Shown one piece after another: positions 17,003-59,731 of a stretch of DNA of 59,731 bases. Numbering within the stretch: position 1 is the stretch's first letter; each line of letters starts with the position of its first letter. Origin of the DNA: a virus; the IMG/VR virus record IMGVR_UViG_3300025121_000443, positions 1 to 59,731 of that record; one strand, written 5' to 3'. The position numbers were made by a program, and so were the translations under genes. A model generated the notes under the pieces. It worked only from the letters and a program-made list of their open reading frames with translations. It was not told the origin of the DNA and searched no databases.

Positions 17003-17923
17003 ATGATAGAGTTTAATTCCTATATAGCACCTAATGGCGACGAGTATCCTTTCGACACCGCTACTAGAGCTTTTCTTTCTGAGGAAGGTCTTGGGATGCC
17101 CCCTATAACTTATCTAACTCAGAAAAGTCCATCTCAGCATGGAGAAACAATAATTGGATATAGACTAAATCCTAGAACAATCCAATTGACAATGAGACAG
17201 AATGCTTGCTCAAGAGAAGATTATTGGACTAAAAGATCTTTGTTGTTAGGATTCTTGAAACCAAATAATCAACCCATAGGTTCTGGATCTTATGGAGCAT
17301 TAAGAAAGAAATTTCCTGATGGTTCTATGAGAGATATTGATGTAGTAATTGAACAAGGACCAATATTTCAAGCCAGAGATCTCACAAAATGGGATGAGTG
17401 GGGATTCACGGAAGCCTTACGATTTATTGCCCATGACCCTACTTTTTATGATCCAGTAGAGAAATCTTTATTGTTTGACAATTTAGACGAATTATCGGAA
17501 TCTTCGTTTTTAATATTTTCATTCTCATTTTCGTTTATTCTTGGGTCATATACGTCAGCAGCAATTGAAAATCTTACATATACTGGAACATGGATGGCTT
17601 ATCCTAGAATAGTTATCACAGGACCTGCTACGAATATGGTTATAACCAATATGACCACTTCTGAGATTATTGAAATCAATTATAATATAGCTGCTGGAGA
17701 AATAGTAACTGTTGACCTTGCATTTGGAAATAAAACTGTGGTAAATAATTCTGGAAGAGATTTATCGGGAATAGTTAGTTTACCTAGTAATCTTGATACA
17801 TTTCATCTGGCTCCAGATCCAGAAGCTACCGGAGGAGTAAATGAAATTTATATCAATTCTACAGGAATAGACATAAATTCTAGCGTAGAAATATTCTATA
17901 AAGAAAGATTTATAGGAATATAA
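17003..17923 (+). CDS. Distal tail protein (Dit-like)
   Basis: 306 residues, directly after the tape measure (AAGGAGATAGA before the ATG). The N-terminal part (GYRLNPRTIQLTMRQNACSREDYWTKRSLLLGFLKP) matches the phage tail component/Dit family, where a beta-sandwich ring joins tail tube to hub. The C-terminal part is a likely beta-galectin-type domain. Confidence 0.75.
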   Translation: MIEFNSYIAPNGDEYPFDTATRAFLSEEGLGMPPITYLTQKSPSQHGETIIGYRLNPRTIQLTMRQNACSREDYWTKRSLLLGFLKPNNQPIGSGSYGALRKKFPDGSMRDIDVVIEQGPIFQARDLTKWDEWGFTEALRFIAHDPTFYDPVEKSLLFDNLDELSESSFLIFSFSFSFILGSYTSAAIENLTYTGTWMAYPRIVITGPATNMVITNMTTSEIIEINYNIAAGEIVTVDLAFGNKTVVNNSGRDLSGIVSLPSNLDTFHLAPDPEATGGVNEIYINSTGIDINSSVEIFYKERFIGI

Positions 17924-26217: not shown

Positions 26218-26749
26218 CGTCGCAGAAAAAATAGTAGCCATGCTGATGATACTGGGAAGTATAGTCGGTACACTCGTTACCGCTATTGGTACAGCAAGAC
26301 GGGCTAAAGAAGAATCAAGAGCAAAGATAGAGAAAGAAAAACAGGAACTAAAATCTCACCTAGAAGCCAAAGAAATCGAAAAGGAAGTAAAGAAAGTTGA
26401 ATTAGCCAACCAATTAAGAGCTTTTTACGATAAATTATTGGAGGAAATGGATGAGAAATATCGTAGCTCAGAAGATGAAATAGCAAAATTAAGAATCTCA
26501 CTCAAGACGGTACAGGAAGGTATAAATAAAAACTCGGAAGAGTTAGAAGGAGTTAAAAAGGAGTTATCTAAGGTAAAGAAAGAAAAGGAAACGTTGAGAG
26601 ATGCAGGACTTCTTCTTATTAGAGCAATCGAGGAAAGTATAATTAGTAGAGATCCTGACTGTTTAGATCCTGTTCATGTTAATACAAATGTATTAAAAAC
26701 ATTGAACGAAGTGAAAACTTTATTTGAAAACGGAGTAACAAAAGGGTAA
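26201..26749 (+). CDS. Membrane-anchored coiled-coil protein (spanin-like)
   Basis: 182 residues: one N-terminal membrane helix (~9-27) and then about 110 residues of charged coiled coil (EKEKQELKSHLEAKE onward). This is the layout of an inner-membrane spanin or tail/lysis scaffold, but no partner lipoprotein lies next to it. Last gene before the terminator. Confidence 0.5.
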   Translation: MENGLSVAEKIVAMLMILGSIVGTLVTAIGTARRAKEESRAKIEKEKQELKSHLEAKEIEKEVKKVELANQLRAFYDKLLEEMDEKYRSSEDEIAKLRISLKTVQEGINKNSEELEGVKKELSKVKKEKETLRDAGLLLIRAIEESIISRDPDCLDPVHVNTNVLKTLNEVKTLFENGVTKG

Positions 26750-26959: not shown

Positions 26960-28855
26960 ATGGAATATAATTGGGAAAACCCCGAAGATGTAGTTGAAGC
27001 TTTATTGGTATTATATGAATATCAAACACAAGATGAAAAACAATTAGCCGTAACAGCTTATAGAAATGGAGTTGGGTTTAATGCTTTAGATGCTCCAATT
27101 CTATCTTCATTTGCAGAGCAGATAAAAAGAACAGGTTATTTGTCAGAAAAGCAATATAACCTTACAAAGAGCCTTATTATAAAATATAAGACACAATTAG
27201 GACAAAAAAGCGGCTCAATAAGCGGTTTAAATTACTTTAAGGGTATATACGCCCCCGCACAAAAACAGCAAAAAAATAATGGAACGCTAAAAGTTCAAGA
27301 TGGGTATGTATTTTTCATACCCAATATTTATCCTTCCAATCAAATAAAGCAATATGGATTTACATGGCAAGGTACTCAAATTGGATGGAGAGCAAAATTA
27401 TCTAGAAGGTCAGTCGAGGGTGTATTGCAGCTATTTTCGAATATAGCAATAGATCCAAGCGTAGACGCTTATCTAGAGCTTGAAGGTAGCTCCATTACTG
27501 TTTCTTCTACCGTTACTGAGAGTGCTTTATTTCCTTTTCAAAAGGAAGCTGTAAAGTTTCTTCTCCAGAGTAAGAAGTCTATGCTTGCTCTTGCTCCTGG
27601 ACTTGGAAAAAGTGCTTCCGCTATATTTGCCGGAAATGAGTTACCAGTTTCTAGCATTCTTATTATATGTCCTCTAACACTTACAAGAAATTGGAAAGCA
27701 GAAATCAAAAAGTGGATAAATGAGGAAGCAGTTATATGGAAAGGTAAAATAAATAATTGGGAAAACTACGATAAATGGGTTATAACCAATTATGATACCG
27801 TAGTAAGAAATTTAGACGATATTTTGAAGCAAGAATTCAAAGCTGTAATAGTAGACGAATCCATTCTTGTAAAGAATAGAAAAGCAAAAAGATCAGAGCT
27901 GATAAAAAGACTTGGGAGAAAAATAGATTATTTGTGGTTACTATCTGGAAGCCCAACATCAAGATTTCTTGACGATGTTTGGATGCAATTTAGCATACTT
28001 GATCCCAAAAGATTTTCTTCTTATTGGAGATTTGTGAATACTTATTGTGATATTGAGACAACTCAATGGGGTACTAAGGTATCTGGAAATCAACCAGACG
28101 CTATTGAAAGACTCCAGAAAGATACTAAAGATATATACTTCTGCCGTACTCAAGAAGAAGTTTTGGATATACCAGATTGGATTTTTGATACAATAGAAGT
28201 TGAGATGGGAAAATCCCAATATAAAGTATATGCTCAGATGGAAGCAGAATTTCTAGCTGAATTACATGAAGGAGATTATATACTAGCTCCTAATGTTTTG
28301 AGCCAGATGATTAGATTATTACAATTTGCCAGTAATCCAATCTTACTTGACGGCGTTGATGATGGTGCTAAGTGGAATGCGGTAGAAGAAATACTTGAAT
28401 ATGAGGAATTACCTGCTATTGTTTGGACGCAATTTATAAAGACGGCAGAACTTATGTATGACAAATTATCGAAGAAGTATAGAGTAGCTGTATTGACAGG
28501 TCAAACGAAAGCTGATCAGAGACAAACTATAGTAGACAATTTTCAAGCAGGAAAGCTGGATATAATAATTGCTCATCCCGCTGTTGGAAAGTTTGGACTT
28601 ACTCTTACCGCTGCTCGGACTGCAGTCTACATGGAACGTTCATATAATGGAGATGACTATTATCAGAGTTTGTACCGTGTGAAAAGAATTGGTACTACGA
28701 AATCTCCGCATATAATTCATTTATTAGCGGTTAGACCACAGGGGTCTGAGGGATATACTATAGATCATGTCATAGATAATGTATTGAAATATCGTAAGGA
28801 TAACAGTATAGCAATCACCTCTGGAATGATACGAGAATATTTAGGAAAATCCTAA
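26960..28855 (+). CDS. SNF2-like DEAD/DEAH-box helicase
   Basis: 631 residues. Motif I is APGLGKS (~210), motif Ia SSILIICPLTL, motif II VDES (a DEAH variant), motif III WLLSGSPTS, motif V IIAHPAVGKFGLTLTAA and motif VI QSLYRVKRIG (the usual QxxxRxxRxGQ with a loose end). The N-terminal ~190 residues carry a HARP/SMARCAL1-like small domain (FFIPNIYPSNQIKQYGF). Likely remodels replication forks or supports phage DNA replication. It opens the replication operon. Confidence 0.8.
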   Translation: MEYNWENPEDVVEALLVLYEYQTQDEKQLAVTAYRNGVGFNALDAPILSSFAEQIKRTGYLSEKQYNLTKSLIIKYKTQLGQKSGSISGLNYFKGIYAPAQKQQKNNGTLKVQDGYVFFIPNIYPSNQIKQYGFTWQGTQIGWRAKLSRRSVEGVLQLFSNIAIDPSVDAYLELEGSSITVSSTVTESALFPFQKEAVKFLLQSKKSMLALAPGLGKSASAIFAGNELPVSSILIICPLTLTRNWKAEIKKWINEEAVIWKGKINNWENYDKWVITNYDTVVRNLDDILKQEFKAVIVDESILVKNRKAKRSELIKRLGRKIDYLWLLSGSPTSRFLDDVWMQFSILDPKRFSSYWRFVNTYCDIETTQWGTKVSGNQPDAIERLQKDTKDIYFCRTQEEVLDIPDWIFDTIEVEMGKSQYKVYAQMEAEFLAELHEGDYILAPNVLSQMIRLLQFASNPILLDGVDDGAKWNAVEEILEYEELPAIVWTQFIKTAELMYDKLSKKYRVAVLTGQTKADQRQTIVDNFQAGKLDIIIAHPAVGKFGLTLTAARTAVYMERSYNGDDYYQSLYRVKRIGTTKSPHIIHLLAVRPQGSEGYTIDHVIDNVLKYRKDNSIAITSGMIREYLGKS

Positions 28856-28885
28856 TTATTACTTCAAAAGAAAGGAGGACTTCAA

Positions 28886-29197
28886 ATGGAAGAAGCCAAT
28901 AAATTTAGAACGTTATTTGTTGTTGAACCGTCACATGATTTGTCTATTACAAAGAAATATACAGATAATGTAAAGTTCATAACCACAGGTACAGAACTTG
29001 TGGAAGAATTGCCAGAAAGGGTGTCAGCTTCCTTGGAAGAATTTGATCCAAAATTAGATGCAATTATTCCTATGGGAAGAACGTCTGCTTGCCTTATTGC
29101 TGGATTATTTATACGTTCAAAAATTCCTAAGGGGGAAAAGGTGAAAATAGGAATCTATAGAAGTGACGCCTATATTTTTATAGACGTGGAGGTATAA
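28886..29197 (+). CDS. Small conserved-context protein, unknown function
   Basis: 103 residues with an alternating strand/helix pattern and a glycine-rich centre (IIPMGRTSACLIAGLFI). Strong SD AAAGGAGGA. It lies between helicase and nuclease genes and abuts the nuclease start. I do not recognise the family. Confidence 0.5.
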   Translation: MEEANKFRTLFVVEPSHDLSITKKYTDNVKFITTGTELVEELPERVSASLEEFDPKLDAIIPMGRTSACLIAGLFIRSKIPKGEKVKIGIYRSDAYIFIDVEV

Positions 29198-30051
29198 TGC
29201 GAAAGTTTTCTCATTCGTCTATGTCGACTTTTCGTCGATGCAGAGCACGATATAAATGGAGTTATATAGACAATTATCGCACGGATTCTGGATTAGGTCA
29301 GAGTAGAGGATCCATAGGTCATGCCGTTTTACAAAATTGGTATGAACATTTGGATATGGAAGATCAAAATGAACGAGATGAACTTGCTATGAAAGTAGCT
29401 GCTAACATGTATAATGATCTAGAAGCTACTATGGAGCAAGACTTTACTGCTGATTGGGATCTTATGTGCGTAATATTGCCTAGATACTTCGATTGGGCTA
29501 GAGAGAATGATAACTTTACTCGTATTGTCTCTCTTGAACAAAAGTTTGAAATTCCTATTGGAAAGCATACCGTAATAGGATATATTGACGGTGTTGTGGA
29601 AGTCAATGGTGGGTTATGGCTCTTAGAACATAAATTCAATAAGCGTGTAAGTACAGGACATATAGATCTCGATCCTCAGATGAGCTTGTATATGTTAGCT
29701 GCTCATACGTTAGGAATAGATGTTAGAGGAGTATTCTTTAATGTTATCCGTGCTGCAGAAGGTGGAATAGCTGCAAAAGAGCCTGTGGTAAGAGCAAGGG
29801 TCTACAGAAATCAGGAAGGTCTTAGTGCTATTGCCTATGAAACAGAAACCCAATTGGATGAAATGGAAGAGTTTCATCGACTTGGAGGTAGAGTCTACAG
29901 AAATCCAACCAAGGATTGTAGTTGGGATTGTGGATTCTATGGTGCTTGTTTAGCAATAAATGATTGCGGAAGCCCTCATGAAGTACTCAGTAAACTTCCT
30001 ATAGTACCGCATGAGAGTTCTCAAGATGAGAAAGGAGAAAGCAGTGAGTAA
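29197..30051 (+). CDS. RecB/Cas4-like PD-(D/E)XK nuclease with Fe-S cysteines
   Basis: 284 residues. Motifs: FRRCRARY with an N-terminal Cys, GSIGHAVLQNWYE (GxxxH), VIGYIDGVVEV (Asp), WLLEHKFNK (ExK), DPQMSLYMLA (QxxxY) and three C-terminal cysteines in CSWDCGFYGAC. This is the signature of the RecB-like/Cas4 nuclease family with a 4Fe-4S cluster. It is probably the recombination exonuclease that produces ssDNA for the Sak4-like protein encoded next. Eight-base overlap with that gene. Confidence 0.8.
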   Translation: MRKFSHSSMSTFRRCRARYKWSYIDNYRTDSGLGQSRGSIGHAVLQNWYEHLDMEDQNERDELAMKVAANMYNDLEATMEQDFTADWDLMCVILPRYFDWARENDNFTRIVSLEQKFEIPIGKHTVIGYIDGVVEVNGGLWLLEHKFNKRVSTGHIDLDPQMSLYMLAAHTLGIDVRGVFFNVIRAAEGGIAAKEPVVRARVYRNQEGLSAIAYETETQLDEMEEFHRLGGRVYRNPTKDCSWDCGFYGACLAINDCGSPHEVLSKLPIVPHESSQDEKGESSE

Positions 30052-37076: not shown

Positions 37077-38093
37077 GTGTCTCAATATATAATAACTCTT
37101 GATGAATTAATGAGAGGTAGCGGTAGCACGATATCTCTAGACACTGAAACCACTGGTCTGTCGTGGTCAAATGATAAGCTAATTGGAGTAGGAACATACT
37201 GTAAAAATTTGAATGTCATGGGATATGTTCCCACACTTGACGATGTGGAAAGAAATAGAGTAAAATCTGCTCTAAAAGAACTTTCTAAAGATACAACAAT
37301 CATAATGCACAATGCAAAATTCGATCTCCACTTTATGGGATTAAACCCAACAAAGGGAGGTTGGAAAATTTTAGATACGACTGTTATGGTTCATCTTCTA
37401 GATTCCAGAAATAAAAAGTCTTTGAAAGAATCTGAGAATACTTTTCTTGGAACAGATAGCAAAAGACATCACGTAGCAGCAGCTCCAGCAAGAACCAAAA
37501 TTTGGGATTGGAGCCTGGATTTGGTTAGTGCATATTGTGCGAATGACTGCTTAGTAACCTATCAACTTGCGGAGGTTTTATATCCAAGACTGGAAGCTGA
37601 GGGTCTTCTGAAAGTATTTTGGAAAGAAATGAAATATCTGCGAGTTGTAAACGACATAGAAGAATATGGCGTGGTATTAGACGAAGATTTTGTTTACTCT
37701 GCTTCTGCAAAACTAGGAAGAAGTCTTGAGAAAATGGAAGAGGAACTCTATGATGCGTGTGGTAACACCTTCAACTGGAGAAGTCCTCAACAATTATCCA
37801 AAGCAATTTATGATGGACTTGGGATTCCAAGGCCAAAGAATCCATTTGCAGATGCTGACGGTATAGACCGTAGTAGATTTGCAGATTCCGGTAAATACAA
37901 ATCTACTTGCACGAGCACATTTCTTCTTACCGAGAAGGTTCATCATCCTCTTGGAGAATCCTCTTGGAGAACTTATAAGCTCTATGAGAGAATGTGCCAA
38001 ACTGCGAAAAAGTTTGCTGAAATATCTAGAGCTAAAAGACGAAAACAGAATACTTCATACAACATTCAACATGACTGGTACTCGTACAGGTAG
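37077..38093 (+). CDS. DNA polymerase I, 3'-5' exonuclease part (frame ends early)
   Basis: GTG 37077 after TTTGGAGGA. The 3'-5' exonuclease motifs are intact: SLDTETTGL (Exo I), HNAKFDLHFM (Exo II), YCANDCLVTYQL (Exo III). Coherent polymerase-type sequence continues to HHPLGE at about 37958; the rest is frame-shifted junk ending at 38093. A 13-bp exact tandem duplication (37946-37971) causes the shift. Removing one copy reads EKVHHPLGELISSMREC and joins smoothly to the polymerase domain in the next entry. May be a real split gene, a switch or an assembly error. Confidence 0.75.
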   Translation: MSQYIITLDELMRGSGSTISLDTETTGLSWSNDKLIGVGTYCKNLNVMGYVPTLDDVERNRVKSALKELSKDTTIIMHNAKFDLHFMGLNPTKGGWKILDTTVMVHLLDSRNKKSLKESENTFLGTDSKRHHVAAAPARTKIWDWSLDLVSAYCANDCLVTYQLAEVLYPRLEAEGLLKVFWKEMKYLRVVNDIEEYGVVLDEDFVYSASAKLGRSLEKMEEELYDACGNTFNWRSPQQLSKAIYDGLGIPRPKNPFADADGIDRSRFADSGKYKSTCTSTFLLTEKVHHPLGESSWRTYKLYERMCQTAKKFAEISRAKRRKQNTSYNIQHDWYSYR

Positions 38094-39051
38094 ATTGAGT
38101 TCATCTAAACCTAATTTGCAGAATGTAGCTTCTGCTACACGTGGTAGATTTACTCAATCTGTTTATACTGGTAGTGTTGAAAGAACAGACGAGTTCAATA
38201 TGCGCAGGGCAATCAAACCTCGTCCAGGACATGTCTTTGTAGCTGTAGACTATAAGCAAATGGAAATGAGAATGTTTGGTATACTTTCTCAAGATCCGTT
38301 TATGTTGAATGCGTTGCTTGCAGGTAAGGATGTTCACTTAGAAATAGCTTTGAAAGTTTGGGGTGATTGTGGCTATGATATGAATATGGTACATCGTGAG
38401 TGGTCTAAAACAATTACATTCGGATTAATTTATGGAATGACTCTTGGTAGTTTGCAGTATAAATTGAATATGACAAGAATGCAAGCTGCGAAAGTAACTG
38501 ATCAATATTGGGGAGAATTTCCTCGCATCAAACCCTGGATGAATGAAATCATAGAATCCTGTAAAATGATGGGATTCGTAAGATATTGGAGTGGAAGAAT
38601 ATGGAGAGAAGACAATCCTCTGGATATGTATAGAGGTTGTAATGCTCTAATTCAAGGTGGTTGTGCTGACTTTCTCTCTATAGCTGCGATAAAAGTTTAT
38701 GAATGGACGCTAAAACAACCTAGTCATCATATAATAAATTTAGTGCATGATGAAATTATAACGGAAGTTCCAGAAAATGATATCTTGAGATCTGCAAGAG
38801 TAATTTCAGAGCTTATGCAGGTTCCAGAAATATTTAACATTCCATTTGCTACAGATGCTAAAGTAGGAATATCTTATGGAGAAATGGTAAAGATAGACAA
38901 AGAATTATTATTAGATAATTCAATTGAAAGCATATCAATGGAAGAATTGTATGCTAGAGATAAAATATCTCATGATGCTAAAATAGCTGTTACTGAAGAA
39001 AAGGAAAATCCATTTGAAGAAGAACTAGAAGAAGAACTCTCAGAGGAGTAA
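37879..39051 (+). CDS. DNA polymerase I, polymerase domain (other frame)
   Basis: Family A motifs are all present: TGRLSSSKPNLQNV, VAVDYKQMEMR (motif A), REWSKTITFGLIYG (motif B/O-helix; Arg, Lys, Phe, Tyr in place) and LVHDEIITEVP (motif C). The frame is +1 relative to the exonuclease part because of the 13-bp duplication. The open frame begins at TTG 37879 but real homologous sequence starts only near 37960; a separate start could be ATG 37984 with a weakly spaced GGAGAA. The acidic C-terminus EEELEEELSEE is unusual for family A and may contact partners. Confidence 0.75.
   Translation: MQIPVNTNLLARAHFFLPRRFIILLENPLGELISSMRECAKLRKSLLKYLELKDENRILHTTFNMTGTRTGRLSSSKPNLQNVASATRGRFTQSVYTGSVERTDEFNMRRAIKPRPGHVFVAVDYKQMEMRMFGILSQDPFMLNALLAGKDVHLEIALKVWGDCGYDMNMVHREWSKTITFGLIYGMTLGSLQYKLNMTRMQAAKVTDQYWGEFPRIKPWMNEIIESCKMMGFVRYWSGRIWREDNPLDMYRGCNALIQGGCADFLSIAAIKVYEWTLKQPSHHIINLVHDEIITEVPENDILRSARVISELMQVPEIFNIPFATDAKVGISYGEMVKIDKELLLDNSIESISMEELYARDKISHDAKIAVTEEKENPFEEELEEELSEE
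37946..37971 (+). repeat. 13-bp exact tandem duplication in the DNA polymerase gene
   Basis: TCCTCTTGGAGAA occurs twice in a row (37946-37958, 37959-37971). Thirteen is not a multiple of 3, so it shifts the frame by +1. PLGE is encoded on both sides in the two frames, consistent with a recent duplication of a coding segment. Confidence 0.9.
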
Positions 39052-39054
39052 ATT

Positions 39055-39234
39055 ATGACAGCATTCATTACAGTTTGTCCATTTTGCCTTACTCTGTACA
39101 TGATCGACTTCTATGAGGGAGAATTATGTCCAACTTGTGGGGTAGAAGAGCTTATATCTTATTACGAATATTCTTTGAGATTGAATACATCCTTTATGGA
39201 TGCGTTGGAAGAGGAGCGTGGAAATGACTCCTGA
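39055..39234 (+). CDS. Small zinc-ribbon protein before the primase
   Basis: 59 residues, SD GAGGAGTAAATT. VCPFCLT and LCPTCGV form a CxxC/CxxC zinc ribbon near the N-terminus; an acidic C-terminus ends EEERGNDS. It overlaps the primase start by 11 bases. It could be a primase or polymerase partner (inference from position). Confidence 0.65.
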   Translation: MTAFITVCPFCLTLYMIDFYEGELCPTCGVEELISYYEYSLRLNTSFMDALEEERGNDS

Positions 39235-41710
39235 AGCATCAATAGAACCGCTTTTGCTGGAAATATTTGGAGGAAATCCCTACCACGCAAGAGCAAATGA
39301 AAAGAATGGAGATATTTATTATGCTCCTGTAGAAGTTCCACTTACTCTTGAGCATTTAAAAGAACACGTTGAAGGAATAAGTTGTTTAGGATCTTATCAA
39401 TTAGCTCAGGGTTCAGATACTGTAAAATGGCTAGGGTGGGACATTGACGATAAAGACAATGAAAATGCCAGAAAAACGGTAAAGAAGATTGTAAAGCACT
39501 TAGGATCAATACCACATTGTGTAGAGTTTTCAGGAGGAAAAGGATATCATGTTTTAGTATTCCTGGAATCCCCGTTACCAGCTGTAAAGGCTAAGAAGAT
39601 CGTTGATTGGGTACGAGAAAAAGAAGGCTTTGCTGTTACCGGAGATTCTCATGTAGAATGCTTTCCTAAACAAGACCAATTAACTAAGATAAGATCTAAA
39701 GGAAATCTACTCAAAATACCGTGTGGACTGCATCCTAGAACACATAATCGTTCAGTATTTGTAGACCCCAATAATGGTTGGGAACATGGTGCATTAGAAG
39801 ATCCTTCCATAGTTTTAGCTCAAAGGGCAGATGTAAATGATGTTCTTGACATTGCTTCAGAGGGACCTTCAGTAGATGTACAGCTTGTAAATTTACTATC
39901 TCAATATTGGGAAAGCGGAAAAAGACATGATCTATCCCTCTATCTTAGTGGATTTCTGGCACACGAATCTTGGGGAATTGATCAGACTAAGAAATTGATC
40001 GAGGATATATGTCATGCTGTTGGAGATGAAGAAGTATACAATAGACTTCAAACTGTAGAAACCACATTTATAAAGCATAAAGAAGGAAAGAGTATTCGCG
40101 GTAGACAGGGATTAGGAGAAATACTACCGATTTCTACTCTTCAGAAGCTAACTGAACTTGTGGCTACAATCAGAGCTCCAGATACAGTTGCACAAATAGA
40201 TGATATTAGATACTCTAAAGGAAGAGCAAAATTAGATAGCGTTCGTCTAGCAAGTAATACTATTTGGAGTATTATGAATGACGAAGGATGCAAAATATTC
40301 CAGACAGATCAGGCTGTTGCATATTGGTATAACGCTGAAGATCATTCTGTAACTGAGGAAGCTTCTGAACCTTGGAAGGCTTTGCTAAATAAATTGTTTG
40401 GACTTAATCCACAAGATTCCTTTAGTAAACTAATTTTTCAAGAACTAAGATTGCGTATAGTAAGAGATGCACCTATTGTTCCCATACAAAACAGAACATA
40501 TTGGAGTGAAAGTCCACCTAGACTATATGTAAATCTTGGAGGTCCTGAAGTATATATTTTGGATGGAAAGACGATAGAAAAAGGATACAATGGTGAATGT
40601 GGTCACATGTTCATTACAAATCAGAATGCTGTATATTCTATTCCTGATTTTGATGCACCGCCTGTAGATGCTTGGGATTATCTGGTAAATGACCTATCGT
40701 TTACCGTTTCTGCTGATGCACCTGCAAAACCAGAGGAACAAAGAGAGTTATTGAAGGCTTGGCTACTTGCATTTTTCTTCCAAGAGCTTATGCCAACGAA
40801 ACCAATTCTTGCCATGTTAGGGCAACCTGGAAGCGGTAAGACCACAGCCATTCGTAGGATTTTACGAATATTTGAAAATCCAGACTCGGATGTATTAGGT
40901 GTACCTACCGATAAACAGGATGCTTTTAGAGCCAGTATTGCTTCTCATAGACTTCTGGTACTGGATAACTTAGAGAAGTCTGGTGCTTACTGGATGGTTG
41001 ATATGCTCAACAAATTAGCAACAGGAAATAATATTGAATTACGAGAACTTTACAAAACGAATTCTAAATTTACTATTGTTCCCAAATGTTTTATAGCGTG
41101 TACAGCCGTCAACATGCCATTCAGCGATGAAACATTATTTTCTAGATTGCTTGTGTTAGAAATGGATCAATTAGCAGAACCTATTGCAGAGCATATTCTG
41201 CAAAGAAAAATAAAGGAATTCGGTCCAGCTATCTGGGCAGATTTACTTACGAAACTAAATCACATAATTCAATCATTGCTTCTAAACAAAAATGTAAAAG
41301 CTCCGACAAAGAGTAGGCTCGTAGACTTTACCGTTTTCTGTGCAAGGATAAGATATTGCTCGGTAGTAGACGGAGATAAACTAAATCTTGGATTGCTATC
41401 TATGGTAGACGCTCAGTTGAGACAACTAAAAGAGAGTTCTCAAGCTATAGTTCTTATAGAGGAGTGGTTATCTATAAAACCGCAAGAAGCAGCAGAGTGG
41501 AAAACATTCCAAGAACTCTATATTGTGTTGCAAACAATGGCTCAAAGCAGGAGAATGGACTTTAAGTGGAAGAATGTTACAGGGTTGTCTAGACATTTGA
41601 GTACATTACAGGATAGACTTCAAAAAGACTTTGGGGCAGAATTTGAGGATTACTACTCTGCTCAGCAAGGAAAGGATGTTACACGTATAAGATTCCGAAC
41701 AATTATGTAG
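39224..41710 (+). CDS. Archaeo-eukaryotic-type primase fused to AAA+ helicase
   Basis: 828 residues from ATG 39224 (GAGGAGCG upstream). N-terminal primase: WLGWDIDDKD (catalytic DxD) and FSGGKGYHVLVFLE (the SxGKGYH motif), typical of AEP primases. Residues ~520-680 hold a AAA+/SF3-like helicase: MLGQPGSGKTT (Walker A), LLVLDNLEK (Walker B) and CFIACTAVN (sensor-like). It probably primes and unwinds at replication. Such fusions are common replicases of phages and plasmids. Confidence 0.8.
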   Translation: MTPEASIEPLLLEIFGGNPYHARANEKNGDIYYAPVEVPLTLEHLKEHVEGISCLGSYQLAQGSDTVKWLGWDIDDKDNENARKTVKKIVKHLGSIPHCVEFSGGKGYHVLVFLESPLPAVKAKKIVDWVREKEGFAVTGDSHVECFPKQDQLTKIRSKGNLLKIPCGLHPRTHNRSVFVDPNNGWEHGALEDPSIVLAQRADVNDVLDIASEGPSVDVQLVNLLSQYWESGKRHDLSLYLSGFLAHESWGIDQTKKLIEDICHAVGDEEVYNRLQTVETTFIKHKEGKSIRGRQGLGEILPISTLQKLTELVATIRAPDTVAQIDDIRYSKGRAKLDSVRLASNTIWSIMNDEGCKIFQTDQAVAYWYNAEDHSVTEEASEPWKALLNKLFGLNPQDSFSKLIFQELRLRIVRDAPIVPIQNRTYWSESPPRLYVNLGGPEVYILDGKTIEKGYNGECGHMFITNQNAVYSIPDFDAPPVDAWDYLVNDLSFTVSADAPAKPEEQRELLKAWLLAFFFQELMPTKPILAMLGQPGSGKTTAIRRILRIFENPDSDVLGVPTDKQDAFRASIASHRLLVLDNLEKSGAYWMVDMLNKLATGNNIELRELYKTNSKFTIVPKCFIACTAVNMPFSDETLFSRLLVLEMDQLAEPIAEHILQRKIKEFGPAIWADLLTKLNHIIQSLLLNKNVKAPTKSRLVDFTVFCARIRYCSVVDGDKLNLGLLSMVDAQLRQLKESSQAIVLIEEWLSIKPQEAAEWKTFQELYIVLQTMAQSRRMDFKWKNVTGLSRHLSTLQDRLQKDFGAEFEDYYSAQQGKDVTRIRFRTIM

Positions 41711-44627: not shown

Positions 44628-45455
44628 ATGAGCAAAGAGTTAATTCAACAAACTAAGCAAGCAATGAAAGATCTCAAGTATGGAGATCCAATTCCAAACA
44701 ATAACATAGATACAATGTTCCAAGTAAAATATGACGGATGGTTTAGTCATATCACAATTAAAGACGGCTTTGCTACCGTAGTCACTTCCGGTGGAGAAGT
44801 TCGTAAGAGATTCGATATAGATGTTCCTGATGCCATTGTTCTTGCAGAATGGATGTATGGTACGAACAGTAGTCAAACTCATCCGTTGAAAGACAAATTT
44901 ATAATTCATGATGTACTTAGTCTAAATGGATATAATCTTAAGAATGACATGTATATAGCAAGAATATCATCTGCAGTACAACTAACATCTAATCCCCACG
45001 ATTATCCCAATTTTCCATTCGTTTTAATCCCCTCCCATTTTCCAGAGCAATTTGAGGATATCTGGAAAACAGAAGTTTTAGGTGCTGGTGAAGAAGGTGT
45101 GGTATTCAAACATGCTTATGCAAAATTCGGTGAAGACACCATGTATCGCATGAAAAGAGAATTCACTATGGACTATATTGTGGTAGGATTCAAAGAAGGT
45201 ACTAAGCGATTAGAAGGAACTTTGGGAGCTCTTGAAGGTGGTTTATATTACAAAGGAAATCTTATGAGAATTCTGTCAGTAGGTGGTGGATTTACCGATT
45301 CTGAACGAGAAGAAATATGGGAAAATAAACCAAAATATCTTGGTATGGTATTTGAAGCATCTGGTAAAGCTCTTTTCGAATCTGGTGCTTTGAGACATCC
45401 AGCTTTTCAGAGATTCCGCACAGACAAAATTCCACAAGAGTGTATTCTGTCATGA
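44628..45455 (+). CDS. ATP-dependent polynucleotide ligase
   Basis: 275 residues; SD AAGGAGGATAA. Motif I is VKYDGWF (KxDG; Lys is adenylated), motif IIIa-like FIIHDVLSL, motif IV EEGVVFKH and motif V YRMKRE. Length is typical of compact phage ATP-dependent DNA ligases; RNA ligase is an alternative. It seals nicks in replication and recombination. Confidence 0.75.
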   Translation: MSKELIQQTKQAMKDLKYGDPIPNNNIDTMFQVKYDGWFSHITIKDGFATVVTSGGEVRKRFDIDVPDAIVLAEWMYGTNSSQTHPLKDKFIIHDVLSLNGYNLKNDMYIARISSAVQLTSNPHDYPNFPFVLIPSHFPEQFEDIWKTEVLGAGEEGVVFKHAYAKFGEDTMYRMKREFTMDYIVVGFKEGTKRLEGTLGALEGGLYYKGNLMRILSVGGGFTDSEREEIWENKPKYLGMVFEASGKALFESGALRHPAFQRFRTDKIPQECILS

Positions 45456-51989: not shown

Positions 51990-52009
51990 GGTACAATTTA
52001 CCTGCTTAT

Positions 52010-52038
52010 ATAATAGCTTCTTTACATTCAAAATGCAA
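52010..52038 (-). promoter_or_regulatory. Leftward promoter
   Basis: Minus strand TTGCAT (52033-52038), 17 bp, TATTAT (52010-52015), with AGAAGC directly before the -10, as at 56155 and 57800. Confidence 0.65.
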
Positions 52039-53996: not shown

Positions 53997-54260
53997 CTAT
54001 TCTAAATTTTCTGCCCTAATCCACAAACCAAGATACTCCGGTAGATGAAATGGCGGGTGATTATCACCCTCATAACTATAGAATTGTGGCGGCTGACCTT
54101 TTGAAGGCGACCCATCCAACTCACGTGATTGCCATACTCTACCATAATACCACAACGGAGTACATCCAAACTCTCCACATAAGAGCCAGCAGAAAACTCC
54201 ATCCTGTGGTATACCTCTCGTAGCTTCACCGCTAAAACCCATGTCTATTATAGCTCTCAT
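53997..54260 (-). CDS. Hypothetical protein
   Basis: 87 residues with several Trp and Cys (VFCWLLCGEFGCTPLWYYG). Overlaps the ATPase gene by 4 bases. Unknown function. Confidence 0.5.
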   Translation of the reverse strand: MRAIIDMGFSGEATRGIPQDGVFCWLLCGEFGCTPLWYYGRVWQSRELDGSPSKGQPPQFYSYEGDNHPPFHLPEYLGLWIRAENLE

Positions 54261-55744
54261 ACAAATACTTTTGCCAATTTCGAAATGGAAGCTACAGCTT
54301 GCTCTGAGGTCTCTTCCATTATGGTAGCCATTACCGCTAGAAATATCTCGTCGTGTGTACTGCGACTTAGATGTGCTGCTTCATGACATGCAGATATCCA
54401 CATTTTCATAATTCGTTGTACACCTGTCTCTACACTCAATACCATTTTGGGATTAATTGCAAAGAAATGAAGCCCATAATTGCGCTCATAAGAAGCTTCT
54501 TGATGCTCTCTACCCAACAAGCCCAGAGCGAATTCAAAGTCCTGTGGCAAGATAATAGCCAGCAACTTTTCCCAAACTGCTAGAACTTTAGCCGCTCCTT
54601 CGATTGCAACTTCATCCTCTTCTGTGTAATCATACAATTTGAGTAGAACATTATCTTTGGTATTATCCACATACTTGGTAGGATTTTCAGAAGTATTCTT
54701 AGCTGCTTTTATAGCTGAGTGGATACTATCCTCCCAATCCTTTACTTTTTCTTTTATGGTATCTCCACTTCCAAACGACCAGACCTGTTTCCGCTTGCCA
54801 GTACACAATCTACCGAATATTACAGATGTATCCATATCAGCAAGATCAATAGCATATTGTACCGTCATCGGATTTTCGGCTATTGAGCGAAACCAGTTAT
54901 GCACGTCTGTTCTAAGAGAACCCACAAGATCCTCCCGCGACATGGTAAATGGATAATCAGAACTGCTTGGATCGCAATTTACATTATCAACGTCGATGAG
55001 AAAGGTCTTTTCAGGAAGGTTGCTCGCATAAGGACGATACTGCACAAGATTATTCAAGCGAACATACACTCTACCCGAGAAATCTGTATTTTGAAATACG
55101 TTATTCTCTGAAGTAGCTAGATCAAAACCGTAACCCTGCCATCCATCACCGTCTACCAATATCTTTTTTGCAATATTCTGGGATAGAAACCCTGCATGCT
55201 CGTCGTCTATCTCTGTACTATAATACGCATAGTGAAAATGAATATCTACATCACTAAGATAAATCATTGCAAGCATATCTCGTTTATAATCCCACTCACC
55301 GCTGACATCAACGGTCACGGTAATGGAGGTACCGTCAAGTGGTTCTACTATATGGATTTCATTGCCTTCAACCAAATCATCAATACTGATAAAGTTATCC
55401 AAGGTATGAACTTCCCAGTAGTTACCACTCATAATCGCAGCTTTGGCAATACCGAATTTGCCTGTGCTATCTGTTCCACGCTTTGAGCTTCCACCCAAGC
55501 ACAAGAAGTCATTGAGCAGCTCTTGCTGAGACATCCCACAGCCATTGTCAGTGCAAGTGATTTTAGCTTCCGTTGCATCCCGAACTACACTTATGGAGAT
55601 CTGTGGTATGACACCTTTGCGTTTGCATGCGTCAACACTATTTTGCAAGAGTTCTCGCACAATAATCGGAATGCTGTGAGAACTGTACAGCTTACGACCC
55701 AACATCTTTATAAGAGTTGGATCTATAGACATTGTAGCTTTCAT
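54257..55744 (-). CDS. Hsp90/MutL-type (GHKL) ATPase with a C-terminal HExxH motif
   Basis: 495 residues. N-terminal Bergerat fold: ELLQNSVDACKRK (N box, here ELLQNSVDAC), DNGCGM (G1), GSSKRGTDSTGKFGIAKAAI (G2). The C-terminal ~80 residues carry ACHEAAHLSRSTHDEIF, an HExxH-type metalloprotease motif. The combination suggests an ATP-driven chaperone-like protease or a defence/anti-defence effector. I know of no closely matching phage protein. The largest leftward gene. Confidence 0.6.
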   Translation of the reverse strand: MKATMSIDPTLIKMLGRKLYSSHSIPIIVRELLQNSVDACKRKGVIPQISISVVRDATEAKITCTDNGCGMSQQELLNDFLCLGGSSKRGTDSTGKFGIAKAAIMSGNYWEVHTLDNFISIDDLVEGNEIHIVEPLDGTSITVTVDVSGEWDYKRDMLAMIYLSDVDIHFHYAYYSTEIDDEHAGFLSQNIAKKILVDGDGWQGYGFDLATSENNVFQNTDFSGRVYVRLNNLVQYRPYASNLPEKTFLIDVDNVNCDPSSSDYPFTMSREDLVGSLRTDVHNWFRSIAENPMTVQYAIDLADMDTSVIFGRLCTGKRKQVWSFGSGDTIKEKVKDWEDSIHSAIKAAKNTSENPTKYVDNTKDNVLLKLYDYTEEDEVAIEGAAKVLAVWEKLLAIILPQDFEFALGLLGREHQEASYERNYGLHFFAINPKMVLSVETGVQRIMKMWISACHEAAHLSRSTHDEIFLAVMATIMEETSEQAVASISKLAKVFV

Positions 55745-56134: not shown

Positions 56135-56154
56135 AAGGGTTTTGTTGCACCTAT

Positions 56155-56183
56155 AGTATAGCTTCTTTTGGTTCACATTACAA
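56155..56183 (-). promoter_or_regulatory. Leftward promoter
   Basis: Minus strand TTGTAA (56178-56183), 17 bp ending AGAAGC, TATACT (56155-56160). It drives 55757 and probably the ATPase and following genes. Confidence 0.8.
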
Positions 56184-56872
56184 TATTCACTTTTGTTATT
56201 TTAATCTTCATTTTGTAAGAATTCTACTCTTGACAGACTCTTGTTGAATCAAGTTTTGTGCTACTCCTCCCGCGAAGCGGGGGTGTTGAGGGTGGCAGCG
56301 ACGATGGTGTTGGCATAAAACTTGCAACTAGAGAGAATTTTGACATGTACTGTACCCTATTTTAATAGATTCGTAAACGTTGCGTGTAGTTTAATATTTT
56401 TTGGCTATACGCAGAACCATGTACTATACCCCACCATTATGATCTTAGAGTGTTACTATTTGGTTACTGACGTTCATTTTTGGAATAAAAAATGGTCAAA
56501 AATGAAGAAAAAAGTGTGGGAAAGGGTATCTGGAGTGAAGGGCTACCATGTACTATACCCTAATAAATCCATTAGTCTACCCAAATCGAAAAGTTTTTAT
56601 ATATAGTGTTTTTTTGTGGGTTTTTAAAATAAAAAGTTTTCGAAAAAAGTAGACATACGGATTTATTAGGGTATAGTACATGGTATTGCGCATAGCCATG
56701 CTCAAAGTCCGTCTACTTTTTGCTCAAAAAAAGTTAAGCTACACGCAGAAATCAGTCTTTTCGTACAACCTTCTGTATAATGTTGGAGTTTTCGTTCATT
56801 TTTCACCCAAAACTCCGTTCATTATCTCCATATTCGTCGTCTTTTTAGACATAAATACCATCAATTTTGCCC
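56184..56872. other. Non-coding region with inverted and direct repeats (possible origin)
   Basis: 689 bases without a convincing gene. A 26-bp perfect inverted repeat (56545-56570 and 56659-56684) continues inward with GTCTAC and TCGAAAA matches. Direct copies of CATGTACTrTACCC lie near 56344, 56419 and 56547. A 10-bp stem TTCATTTTTG/CAAAAATGAA occurs at about 56471-56504. TATAAT at 56776 has no good -35. AT-rich structure and iterons suggest a replication origin or regulatory centre. Confidence 0.5.
56545..56684. repeat. 26-bp inverted repeat spanning ~140 bp
   Basis: Arms start ACCATGTACT and end with the reverse complement TAGTACATGGT; the arms also include a shared TACTATACCC core. The stem can extend past the perfect part. 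No transposase or flanking target duplication is seen. Confidence 0.9.
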
Positions 56873-57046
56873 TCAATTTTCGATGTCAGGTGTGGTATGA
56901 CGCTCTCGTGAGTGTGGTATGACCATCTCTCTACCGTTCTCGTCAACCGTGAATCCACAGTTCGCACACACATTTTCGTCATCAACCAATGGTATCAAAT
57001 CTCCACAGTCCGGACATGTTACTGTCGGTACTCGTTTACACATCAT
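56873..57046 (-). CDS. Small zinc-ribbon protein
   Basis: 57 residues from ATG 57046 (AAGGAGAGT). VTCPDCGDL and VCANCGFT are CxxC pairs. Its last codons (SRERHTTPD) are encoded by the paired GTGTGGTAT motifs at 56890 and 56912 read in reverse. Confidence 0.65.
   Translation of the reverse strand: MMCKRVPTVTCPDCGDLIPLVDDENVCANCGFTVDENGREMVIPHSRERHTTPDIEN
56890..56920. promoter_or_regulatory. Paired GTGTGGTAT motifs
   Basis: Copies at 56890-56898 and 56912-56920, 22 bases apart, inside the end of the zinc-ribbon gene. Confidence 0.55.
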
Positions 57047-57413
57047 ACTCTCCTTGAAATGATTCGTTTGTCGTATTCTGGTAGTGCATTTCGCACAAAT
57101 TGCTGACACAGTTTCGTGTCAATCATGTCATGTATGGTATCCCTCAGTGTTTCCCAATTAATCTTTCCACACTGATGGTTACTTCCAAATTTCATCGCTT
57201 TTCTCAATGGCTCAGTCTCGTTCCAAGAGAAACTTGAAATAGTAAGAAGTGGTTTATCGTTATCAAGCAAAATGACTTTGGCACGATAGGTCTCTGGCAT
57301 GTCAAACATGATGGAAAATCTACGTGTAATCTACGTGTGGTATCGTACTCGTATTTGTCTGATAGAAAATCCAGTTCTTTATCCAATCGGCTTACGGATC
57401 GCACGTATCTCAT
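57043..57413 (-). pseudogene. Frame-interrupted small gene with an 11-bp tandem duplication
   Basis: ATG 57413 follows a near-perfect AAAGGAGGTGA. Reading leftward gives DKYEYDTTRR and then, after an exact 11-bp duplication (57317-57338), the wrong frame. Deleting one copy yields DTTRRFSIMFDMPETYRAK and a continuous ~119-residue protein ending at 57043. Downstream sequence: DNDKPLLTISSFSWNETEPL. Function unknown. Confidence 0.7.
57317..57338. repeat. 11-bp exact tandem duplication
   Basis: AATCTACGTGT twice (57317-57327 and 57328-57338), just before a GTGTGGTAT copy (57335-57343). Confidence 0.9.
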
Positions 57414-57430
57414 ATTTTCACCTCCTTTCG

Positions 57431-57449
57431 GTGTGGTATATCGAAAGTA
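57431..57449. promoter_or_regulatory. GTGTGGTAT merged with TATATCGAA box
   Basis: GTGTGGTATATCGAAAGTA (57431-57449) joins the GTGTGGTAT motif (57431-57439) and a 12/14 match of the leader box (57436-57449), just upstream of the 57413 gene. Confidence 0.45.
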
Positions 57450-57490
57450 TCAACATTTCACCCTTCGCAGGTGGCTGTTGGTTCTACCGT

Positions 57491-57751
57491 CTACTTCATA
57501 ACTTGAAACTTGCGCTCGCGTTGGCAATCTAAACAAACGTGTCCTGTGCGGAACATGCCTATTTTCACCAACTTGATATAGTACATGGCGAAACCGCAAC
57601 CACAGATCTCACAGGTTGCCCGTCCACCATCTTTACTATCCCTTGCCATCTGCCTTATTTTAGCAGGTGTCAAAAAGATACGACGCTTTGGCTCTACTGG
57701 CTCGTTATAGTCGTAACCAATTTCGCGCTTTATCACTTTTTTGGGTTCCAT
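57491..57751 (-). CDS. Zinc-finger protein
   Basis: 86 residues. TCEICGCG and VCLDCQRE (CxxC pairs) after a basic N-terminus (PKRRIFLTPAKIRQMAR). Probably a small nucleic-acid-binding protein. The promoter at 57800 lies just upstream. Confidence 0.65.
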   Translation of the reverse strand: MEPKKVIKREIGYDYNEPVEPKRRIFLTPAKIRQMARDSKDGGRATCEICGCGFAMYYIKLVKIGMFRTGHVCLDCQRERKFQVMK

Positions 57752-57799
57752 TTCAACCTCGCTTTTTCTAGGGCATAGATGCGCTGCCCTGCATATACT

Positions 57800-57828
57800 A
57801 TTATAGCTTCTGTAGAATCACTTTACAA
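57800..57828 (-). promoter_or_regulatory. Leftward promoter with GANTC in the spacer
   Basis: Minus strand TTGTAA (57823-57828), 17 bp with GATTC and ending AGAAGC, TATAAT (57800-57805). Confidence 0.8.
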
Positions 57829-57879
57829 GTACCTGAGGGTAATTGAATAAAAATTGAGAGTGTGGTATGACCCTCTTGT

Positions 57880-58074
57880 TCAGGTGTGGTATCTCTCTAA
57901 GAGTGTCTCATTCTCGCCGAAGAATACAAGGCGGTTCTTTCCAATAGATTCATAGTGATTCGCTCTTTTGGGATTCAAGATGATTCGCAGCTCTAAATTG
58001 TTCAAATTCTCTGCTGTAGGCTTTGGCAATTCGCCCCTACCTTTAATTAAAATAAAATGCAACTCTGGATTCAT
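57880..58074 (-). CDS. Possible small protein overlapping operator motifs
   Basis: 64 residues from ATG 58074 with GGAGAA at good spacing; the protein (PELHFILIKGRGELPKPT...) looks real by composition. Two GANTC-type motifs are inside the coding sequence. No promoter for it was identified. Moderately uncertain. Confidence 0.4.
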   Translation of the reverse strand: MNPELHFILIKGRGELPKPTAENLNNLELRIILNPKRANHYESIGKNRLVFFGENETLLERYHT

Positions 58075-58102
58075 CAATTGTTTCTCCATTTTGCAAAAGG
58101 GC

Positions 58103-58131
58103 TTGTAAAGCGATTCAAATGAAGGTATAGT
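58103..58131 (+). promoter_or_regulatory. Rightward promoter
   Basis: TTGTAA (58103-58108), 17 bp containing GATTCA, TATAGT (58126-58131). Upstream of the zinc-ribbon gene. Confidence 0.75.
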
Positions 58132-58197
58132 ATATGTAGCCAGCCGCACAGGGCGATTGGCAACCACAATCTTTTTGCTACCTAAAGGAGGTAAGCT

Positions 58198-58655
58198 ATG
58201 ACAGAAAACGGTAAGACCATCAACAAGTGCGCTATCTGCGGGAAACCCGTATTTGGTGCAGAAATTGGCAAGACGTGTGCAGCCCATCAGCCCATCAGGG
58301 CAAATTGCGCACTGAAGCCATTGCAGCCGAAAAAGCACCTGAAGGTTGGGTGCGTATGAGCAAAGTTTGTGACGCTGCTGAAAAAGCGGGGCTCAAACGT
58401 GGCGATATTGTGAACGCTGCTGGCGGTGATGCAGCTACCAAACCTGTTCTGGACGAGATCTTTCGCGTAGTGTACGTCGGCAAAGCCAAGTACATGAACC
58501 CCGAAGTTCTGACCAAAGGCATCGCCTTGCTGAAACAAAGCAAAGCACAGCGTGCTGAAGCCAAAGCCAAACCTGCTGAAACCAAAGCACCTGCGAAAGC
58601 AGAAGCCAAAGTGGAAGCTACAGCAAATGCGTTGAAGCAGGCAGTCAAGAAATAG
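58198..58655 (+). pseudogene. Zinc-ribbon/GGD-domain gene interrupted by an 8-bp duplication
   Basis: ATG 58198 follows AAAGGAGG. N-terminal KCAICGKP (Zn) and TCAAHQ, then after an exact CCCATCAG duplication (58283-58298) the frame is lost; it continues in another frame: GKLRTEAIAAEKAPEGWVRMSKVC... AAGGDAATKPVLDEIFRVVYVGKAKYMNPEVLTKG, with an Ala/Lys-rich tail. Deleting one copy gives a 149-residue protein paralogous to the 48980 gene. Base composition is richer in G/C than the neighbours, which may indicate separate origin. Confidence 0.7.
58283..58298 (+). repeat. 8-bp exact tandem duplication
   Basis: CCCATCAG repeated directly (58283-58290, 58291-58298); single copy restores the frame. 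Confidence 0.9.
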
Positions 58656-58670
58656 CCTGTTAGTTGTCGG

Positions 58671-58720
58671 GAGGGCGGAAAGGCAGCAGGTGTTGAGCCA
58701 TTACTGACCTTACCGCCCTC
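58671..58720 (+). other. GC-rich stem between two genes
   Basis: GAGGGCGG (58671-58678) pairs with CCGCCCTC (58713-58720) across a 34-base loop. It may be a weak terminator or mRNA structure. Confidence 0.4.
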
Positions 58721-58746
58721 AAAACTATTATATGGAGGACACGAAA

Positions 58747-58917
58747 ATGGACCAAAACGAATTTGATATCGCAGCAGAAAAAGCAGCGAAAGAACTTGAA
58801 GAACTTGTCAAGAAATTGGACGAAAAGACCATCCGCGAAATGGCTTCCTGGTGGAAGCGCAATTACATGAAAGCGGGACACAAACGTCTTGGACGGATAA
58901 TCGCAAAATTTGGTTAG
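58747..58917 (+). CDS. Tiny helical protein
   Basis: 56 residues from ATG 58747 (GGAGGACACG). Helical (IAAEKAAKELEELVKKLDE) with a basic end (KAGHKRLGRIIAKFG), possibly DNA-binding. Unknown function. Confidence 0.55.
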   Translation: MDQNEFDIAAEKAAKELEELVKKLDEKTIREMASWWKRNYMKAGHKRLGRIIAKFG

Positions 58918-58936
58918 GAGGAGAGCACGGAAAGAG

Positions 58937-58965
58937 CCCTACCGGAAACGGTGGGGTTTCTTTTT
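58937..58965 (+). terminator. GAAA-loop rho-independent terminator
   Basis: CCCTACCG/CGGTGGGG with GAAA loop followed by TTTCTTTTT. Confidence 0.85.
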
Positions 58966-59195
58966 GAAGTGTGGTATCGCGCGAAGAGAAGTGTGGTATT
59001 TCACAAAGATGCTCTCGGAGATTCCTGGAGAGAATCATAGTGATTCGTGTTTAGGGTAGAATCACAATGATTCGCTTATACATGATTCATGGTGATTCGC
59101 AGGTTTATGTGAAACCTTGCTTTTTGATTCGTTAGAACGTATACTGTATTTGCAGGTAATTATGCCTAGCACATTCAAAAATTAGGAGGTTCAAA
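58966..59195 (+). promoter_or_regulatory. Regulatory cassette upstream of the 59196 gene
   Basis: Paired GTGTGGTAT (58969, 58991), three GAWTCANNNTGATTCG sites (59032, 59059, 59084) and the promoter at 59117. No ORF. Confidence 0.6.
59117..59145 (+). promoter_or_regulatory. Rightward promoter with GATTCG in spacer
   Basis: TTGCTT (59117-59122), 17-bp spacer containing GATTCG (59126-59131), TATACT (59140-59145). Confidence 0.75.
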
Positions 59196-59501
59196 ATGAA
59201 AGTACAACAAGTCGTAGTAAATGTAGGTGTAGTAATTCCATGGGAAGAGTTCGGGTTTGATGATTCTGATAATTCCTGCGAAGTTGTGGTTTTGGCTTCA
59301 GAGCTTGAGGGCAACATTGTTGAGGGTGGGAGTGTTACCATAAAAGATTTAAATAATGCTTATCCTGACTCCAACGGTTGTTCTCCTCGTGCTGACATAT
59401 ACACAGGTGTGCGTTCCGGGTGTGAAGTTGCATTAGAAACATGGCTCAGCGGTAAGTCAGGATATGTGGTAAGTATGTGGGAAGAGGAATTTCCTGACTA
59501 G
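59196..59501 (+). CDS. Hypothetical acidic protein
   Basis: 101 residues; SD AGGAGG. Beta-rich, acidic (EEFGFDDSDNSCEVVVLASELEG). Unknown function; sits between two copies of the regulatory cassette. Confidence 0.55.
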   Translation: MKVQQVVVNVGVVIPWEEFGFDDSDNSCEVVVLASELEGNIVEGGSVTIKDLNNAYPDSNGCSPRADIYTGVRSGCEVALETWLSGKSGYVVSMWEEEFPD

Positions 59502-59731
59502 ATGATTGAGTAGGTGTGGTATCGTGCTCATACGTGGGCGTGGTATCACACCTTCATTCTCGTTCTTTCGTAATGAGTATATGATGTATTCTTCAAATAG
59601 ATTCATGGTGATTCGTAGACAAGGTTGGGTACAGATTCACTATGATTCGGGTTGAGGTTTTATGCCGTTCTCCAGTTTTAGGGAAAACTTGCTTTTTTGA
59701 ATCGTTAGAACGTATGCTGTAAGTGCAGGCA
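59502..59731 (+). promoter_or_regulatory. Second regulatory cassette at the window edge
   Basis: GTGTGGTAT-like pair (59514, and GCGTGGTAT 59538), GATTCATGGTGATTCG (59600), GATTCACTATGATTCG (59634) and a promoter TTGCTT-N18-TATGCT (59689-59718) with GAATCG in the spacer. The gene it serves is beyond the window. Confidence 0.6.

Follow-up and report, generated by a model that had tools for sequence, protein, structure and literature searches.

What does a non-coding gap within a leftward array of early genes do for the phage that carries it? The gap in question occupies positions 56184-56872 of the window, by which we mean the whole stretch of DNA analysed, a 59,731-base virus record of a tailed phage, and the initial annotation had regarded it as a replication or regulation centre. 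Since one long inverted repeat occurs per genome in an equivalent gap and a primase-SF3-like helicase is encoded by all five genomes compared, we infer that this proposal was sound and that replication is the favoured of its two options. Judged from its sequence, the region surrounding this unique inverted repeat is quite likely the replication origin of the phage. By analogy with known systems, we lean slightly towards the phage's own 836-aa primase-helicase as the protein that would run it, whereas the combined statement, a replication origin with the primase-helicase as its initiator, appears fairly probable when weighted towards the origin claim.

Genes of the window include the following:

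12436-17001: tape measure protein
17003-17923: distal tail protein
26960-28855: helicase
37077-39051: family-A DNA polymerase in two overlapping frames (exonuclease part, polymerase part)
39200-41710, plus strand: 836-aa archaeo-eukaryotic primase with an AAA/SF3-like helicase and a predicted C-terminal winged helix, the proposed initiator
44628-45455: ligase
from about 47.6 kb, minus strand: leftward array of small genes

The two polymerase frames may reflect a split gene, a frameshift or an intron. For most of its length, the window is collinear with the related genome G009, and it stops within the 712-aa gene located beside the terminase of that genome; thus, a few kilobases appear to be missing, as estimated from the alignment.

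The gap and its edges contain the following features:

56154-56183 (approximate), minus strand: leftward sigma70-type promoter-like site TTGTAA-N17-TATACT, bounding the gap
56184-56872, no strand: the candidate-origin gap, non-coding, within the leftward early gene array and holding the whole candidate origin
56267-56284, plus strand: small hairpin, G+C-rich and tipped by GCGAAGC, at the gap's left edge
56344-56357, plus strand: copy 1 of the short repeat, CATGTACTGTACCC, exact match
56381-56431, plus strand: outer left repeat unit (TGCGTGTAG..TTTTTTGGCTATACGCAGAACCATGTACTATACCC), with inverted partners on the right side
56418-56431, plus strand: copy 2, CATGTACTATACCC, exact match
56544-56600, plus strand: left arm of the long inverted repeat, perfectly paired over 56544-56570
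56547-56560, plus strand: copy 3, CATGTACTATACCC, within the left arm, exact match
56591-56640, no strand: AT-rich core enclosed by the perfect stems (84% A+T), where the A+T content of the gap peaks
56629-56685, minus strand: right arm of the long inverted repeat, perfectly paired over 56659-56685
56669-56682, minus strand: inverted copy, CATGTACTATACCC, within the right arm, exact match
56669-56747, minus strand: stretch with the two segments (56669-56698 and 56725-56747) that match the outer left unit in inverted orientation

The coordinates of the gap hold and its flanking genes point leftward, in keeping with the earlier description of a non-coding region between leftward genes. Two open reading frames that enter it (56322-56606 and 56680-56922) find no match among the ORFs of relatives, no terminator-like site (a short G+C-rich hairpin leading into a run of T) is listed in 56184-56872, and the region has no nucleotide relatives among phage records and no exact 24-mer in viral contigs. 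The description of the region as AT-rich was mistaken, as it has 36% G+C against about 37%; A+T richness is confined to the 50 bp between the arms, and this core is a candidate melting site. G003 and G009 have comparable small hairpins at the left edges of their gaps; the one at 56267-56284 could just as well belong to an mRNA leader. The promoter-like site bounding the gap is one of three near-identical leftward sites (52009-52038, 56154-56183 and 57799-57828; about TTGTAA-N17-TATAMT with AGAAGC ahead), which are probably early promoters.

The most conspicuous element of the gap is its long inverted repeat. What had been reported as a 26-bp inverted repeat is real, but it is longer than stated: a perfect 27-bp stem (56544-56570/56659-56685) embedded in 57-nt arms, which are 84% complementary and lie 28 nt apart. 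Folded as single-stranded DNA, the 142 nt reach -38.4 kcal/mol (z = -10.4), and 0 of 200 shuffles were equally stable. It is the only inverted repeat above our scan threshold in the 59.7 kb, and block-shuffled controls gave none. The three direct copies and one inverted copy of a short motif noticed previously are likewise present, with CATGTACTRTACCC found three times on the plus strand and once on the minus strand. These four are the only exact matches in the window and all fall inside the gap; at up to 3 mismatches, the window holds 13 matches, whereas 100 shuffles averaged 4.7 and never gave more than 9. The label of iterons applied to these copies was only partly apt. Direct copies do exist in the window and in G003, but their spacings of 74 and 129 bp are irregular and not common to the relatives, unlike the regularly spaced, Rep-bound direct repeats of an iteron-type theta origin, and the feature that is common is an inverted pair around an AT-rich core. 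The gap also contains repeat structure beyond what had been listed: 56402-56431 pairs with 56669-56698 (90%) and 56381-56403 with 56725-56747 (87%). Read on the minus strand, the right side matches the left unit 56381-56431 first and then the unit 56544-56600, and from these pairings it is evident that the right side is an inverted composite of the two left units.

Further repeats lie to the right of the gap. A second family, GTGGTAT (often CGTGGTATC..GAAGA), is represented in the window by 31 copies on the plus strand versus 2 on the minus strand, with clusters (56891-59560 and elsewhere) spaced 22-26 nt on the side of the candidate origin away from the RIIA-like gene. The motif is clustered in G009 (L080, L083) and present near the candidate origin in G008 (L021); the cluster is absent in G003 and G005. 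The right end of the window additionally carries imperfect palindromic repeats (GAATCAYRRTGATTCG, 57945-59616) and a 57-nt direct repeat (79%, 59100-59729).

Comparison with related phages provides the principal evidence in favour of a DNA-level function for the long inverted repeat. Related viral contigs were found via helicase, polymerase, RIIA-profile and primase-profile searches; used as lone queries, the adjacent 108-aa protein and the RIIA-like protein found no relatives, and a search of bacterial genomes yielded no relative of the helicase. In every fetched piece, we looked for inverted repeats that were ungapped, had both arms inside 450 bp and scored above 22. The window, G003, G005, G008 and G009 each contain exactly one long inverted repeat above this score, while none was found in the other pieces of these five genomes, in fragments of relatives without this region, or in shuffles. 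At least one of the five is closed, as the 75 kb of G009 end in a 128-bp terminal repeat, and the G003 contig is probably a closed genome too because part of its primase gene lies at each end of the contig. In all five genomes, the repeat resides upstream of the GHKL/RIIA-like gene, where the leftward early array is interrupted by about 0.4-1.0 kb of non-coding sequence, and it consists of a single pair of arms of 45-68 nt. The arm sequences differ among the five, and the A+T maximum of each gap falls within the repeat. The DNA fold z ranges from -5.0 to -10.4 in the three genomes tested, and gapped self-complementarity exceeds all shuffles in all five. In a sixth candidate genome (G019) and in Brevundimonas phage StAshley, inverted repeats are visible, though not above shuffles. 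Short words common to the five gaps show some excess, and TCAAAAATG occurs in four gaps, with none such in shuffles; considered as a binding box, this word is AT-rich and not clearly a box. That one inverted repeat has been kept at one place while its sequence was lost points to selection, acting either on a structure in the DNA or on paired protein sites.

The neighbourhood of the gap has features of its own. The GHKL ATPase gene (54257-55744, minus strand) encodes an RIIA-like N-terminus and a C-terminal HEAAH motif, with weak matches to WLM/YgjP metallopeptidases, and it is kept near the candidate origin in all relatives holding the region. Conversely, the window gene at 58227-58655 (plus strand) has its G009 homologue across the candidate origin, in the opposite orientation and at a similar distance, which amounts to a local inversion or a move across it.

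Several other functions could be proposed for such a region, each less likely than an origin served by the primase-helicase. A cluster of operators, at which an early phage repressor or activator would bind the repeats and control the leftward early genes, would account for a short site that recurs, direct and inverted, close to leftward early promoters. However, the copies do not cover the nearest leftward promoter, which lies about 160-530 bp downstream of them, the other early promoters lack near-exact copies, and regulation of this sort leaves unexplained why each genome has one pair of 45-68-nt arms with an AT-rich core; we therefore consider it unlikely. Marginally less credible still is an origin started by transcription, in which outward promoters in the arms would produce transcripts that prime DNA synthesis with no origin-binding protein. 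Both arms of the window do hold outward TAGACW-N16-TATAGT sites overlapping the repeated motif, yet in a scan limited to sigma70-type sites, promoter-like sites in the five gaps did not exceed shuffles and outward pairs were not shared. The possibility that the gap yields a long hairpin RNA, acting as a small regulatory RNA or decoy, is improbable, even though the 142 nt are very stable when folded as RNA as well. No Rfam family reached its gathering score (sub-threshold matches were to generic long-hairpin miRNA models only), no promoter is common to the gaps, and the better-folding strand, which is the one bearing the G-U pairs, varies between genomes. Because no strand is consistently favoured by G-U pairs, and because the sequence changes while the layout stays, a role as DNA rather than RNA is indicated. 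Finally, long inverted repeats are also found at telomere-resolution sites and transposon ends, but a packaging start, genome end, telomere-resolution site or mobile-element remnant is very improbable here, given that the terminase gene of G009 is about 4.3 kb away, that the contig ends of G009 and G003 are not at the repeat, that the window arms occur nowhere else in its genome, and that chance insertion would not hit an equivalent place in five genomes with different sequence.

If the inverted repeat is indeed a replication origin, strand composition might be expected to change across it, and a GC-skew analysis had been suggested as a check. The outcome was mixed. Whole-genome skew, with sign changes at about 47.6 and 58 kb, mostly tracks gene direction, so a skew change is a weak test. 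To separate the effect of gene direction, third-codon-position skew of leftward genes was compared between the left and right of the repeat. It drops from left to right in all five genomes: from 0.20 to 0.03 in the window, 0.26 to -0.20 in G003, -0.07 to -0.12 in G005, 0.07 to -0.15 in G008 and -0.03 to -0.04 in G009, where the signal is effectively nil. Only the drops in G003 and G008 are individually significant; these two also drive the pooled z of 5.9, which is to be read with the reservation that codons within a gene are not independent samples. The drop gives mild support to bidirectional replication from the repeat.

The second component of the proposed system is the primase-helicase. 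Its primase domain is recognized as PF22548 AEP-TOTE (E 1.8e-22) and matches PDB chain 7nqf (E 4.8e-21), which we take to be a CRISPR-associated primase-polymerase. A primase-SF3-like helicase is present in all five genomes, with 65-68% identity in G005, G008 and G009, and its Walker A motif GQPGSGKTT and DNLE Walker B region are invariant or nearly so. Among 11 relatives, the helicase part was assigned to DUF5906 in 10 and to the papillomavirus E1 helicase (PPV_E1_C, SF3) in 2; the SF3 domain fold itself was modelled at low confidence. The C-terminus is predicted as H-H-H-b-b (pLDDT 74-92) and resembles winged helices, including those of Cdt1/ORC, with matches up to Z 7.6, a value below the level that excludes chance. 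For the full-length model, the top match in a fold search was a weak one to African swine fever virus PrimPol (E 0.02); P4 alpha and NrS-1 are absent from the fold-search lists, an absence that carries no weight. In G008, at C1:57690-57908 (L107), a separate 280-aa ORF includes a second weak copy (30% identity) of the primase-helicase C-terminal domain.

Based upon these features, a scheme for origin function can be proposed. The initiator encoded at 39200-41710 would bind the inverted sites in both arms via its C-terminal winged helix, after which helicase rings would form about the AT-rich core and open it, perhaps with help from extrusion of the long arms as hairpins. The first primers would then come from the fused primase, and two forks would depart in opposite directions, with extension presumably by the phage family-A DNA polymerase. 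Such a scheme would add five divergent genomes of phages, of which at least one is closed, to a class of origin that has seldom been studied and that is known from a plasmid of archaea and a phage of Bordetella. In these genomes, the same pairing of protein and unique hairpin persists despite divergent sequence. This pairing also supplies a natural comparative set with exact coordinates for asking how such initiators find their origin, as well as a practical origin finder for uncultured phages encoding this protein, namely a single long inverted repeat. More tentatively, and with somewhat less confidence than doubt, these could constitute a family of large phages whose stem-loop origin evolves as a structure, with fast-changing paired sequence and a distant primase-SF3 helicase. 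In that case, AEP-SF3 proteins that recognize a stem-loop would represent a general route to the initiation of phage replication, while specificity and origin would co-evolve, leaving close relatives as mutually blind replicons.

When compared with known systems, the candidate origin shows parallels of differing depth. In herpes simplex oriS, inverted binding boxes surround an AT-rich spacer, and a hairpin with a GCGAAGC tip is found as here (PMC12543377). However, no relative of the SF2 origin-binding protein was identified in the phage, whose SF2 helicase matches SNF2-type proteins; the likeness is convergent at most, although the layouts could work alike. P4 alpha is a primase-SF3 helicase-winged helix initiator acting on repeats (PMC4234260), a plan similar to that proposed for the window, but it has a bacterial-type (Toprim) primase and an iteron-type origin instead of an archaeo-eukaryotic primase and a long inverted repeat.

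The closest parallels are the crenarchaeal plasmid pRN1 and the Bordetella phages. The pRN1 replication protein ORF904 combines an archaeo-eukaryotic primase, an SF3-type helicase and a C-terminal winged helix, and genetic evidence showed that the plasmid needs a stem-loop of ~100 nt conserved in structure and not in sequence (PMC4234260). The window presents what is predicted to be the same initiator plan and a stem-loop in non-coding DNA whose structure is likewise kept without its sequence. Recognition of a stem-loop by AEP-SF3-winged helix proteins was put forward in the pRN1 work on the basis of a single plasmid family and a single phage group, and such an origin was proposed also for Bordetella phages BIP-1/BPP-1 (PMC4234260). 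These phages similarly pair an AEP-SF3 replication protein with one strong inverted repeat, which our scan of BPP-1 placed at 26607-26710 with direct copies (TTGCCTCGT) within its arms; it has no detectable sequence similarity to that of the window, and its function is also only proposed. The differences are nonetheless clear. The pRN1 stem-loop is genetically required, lies just downstream of the replication gene and lacks repeated sites, and no more than about 0.6 kb separates the BPP-1 repeat from the primase gene (27177-29741). In contrast, the repeat of the window is a candidate known from sequence, is longer, and is located in the early region about 15 kb from the initiator gene; the two are also far apart in G009. 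This distance, together with the extra repeat copies, is what is new here. As some features of the pRN1/BPP-1 kind are found in the window and adjacency of stem-loop and replication gene is not, its candidate origin would work like that kind yet is not a plain member of it, and adjacency to the replication gene is perhaps a feature of the cases described so far rather than a defining one.
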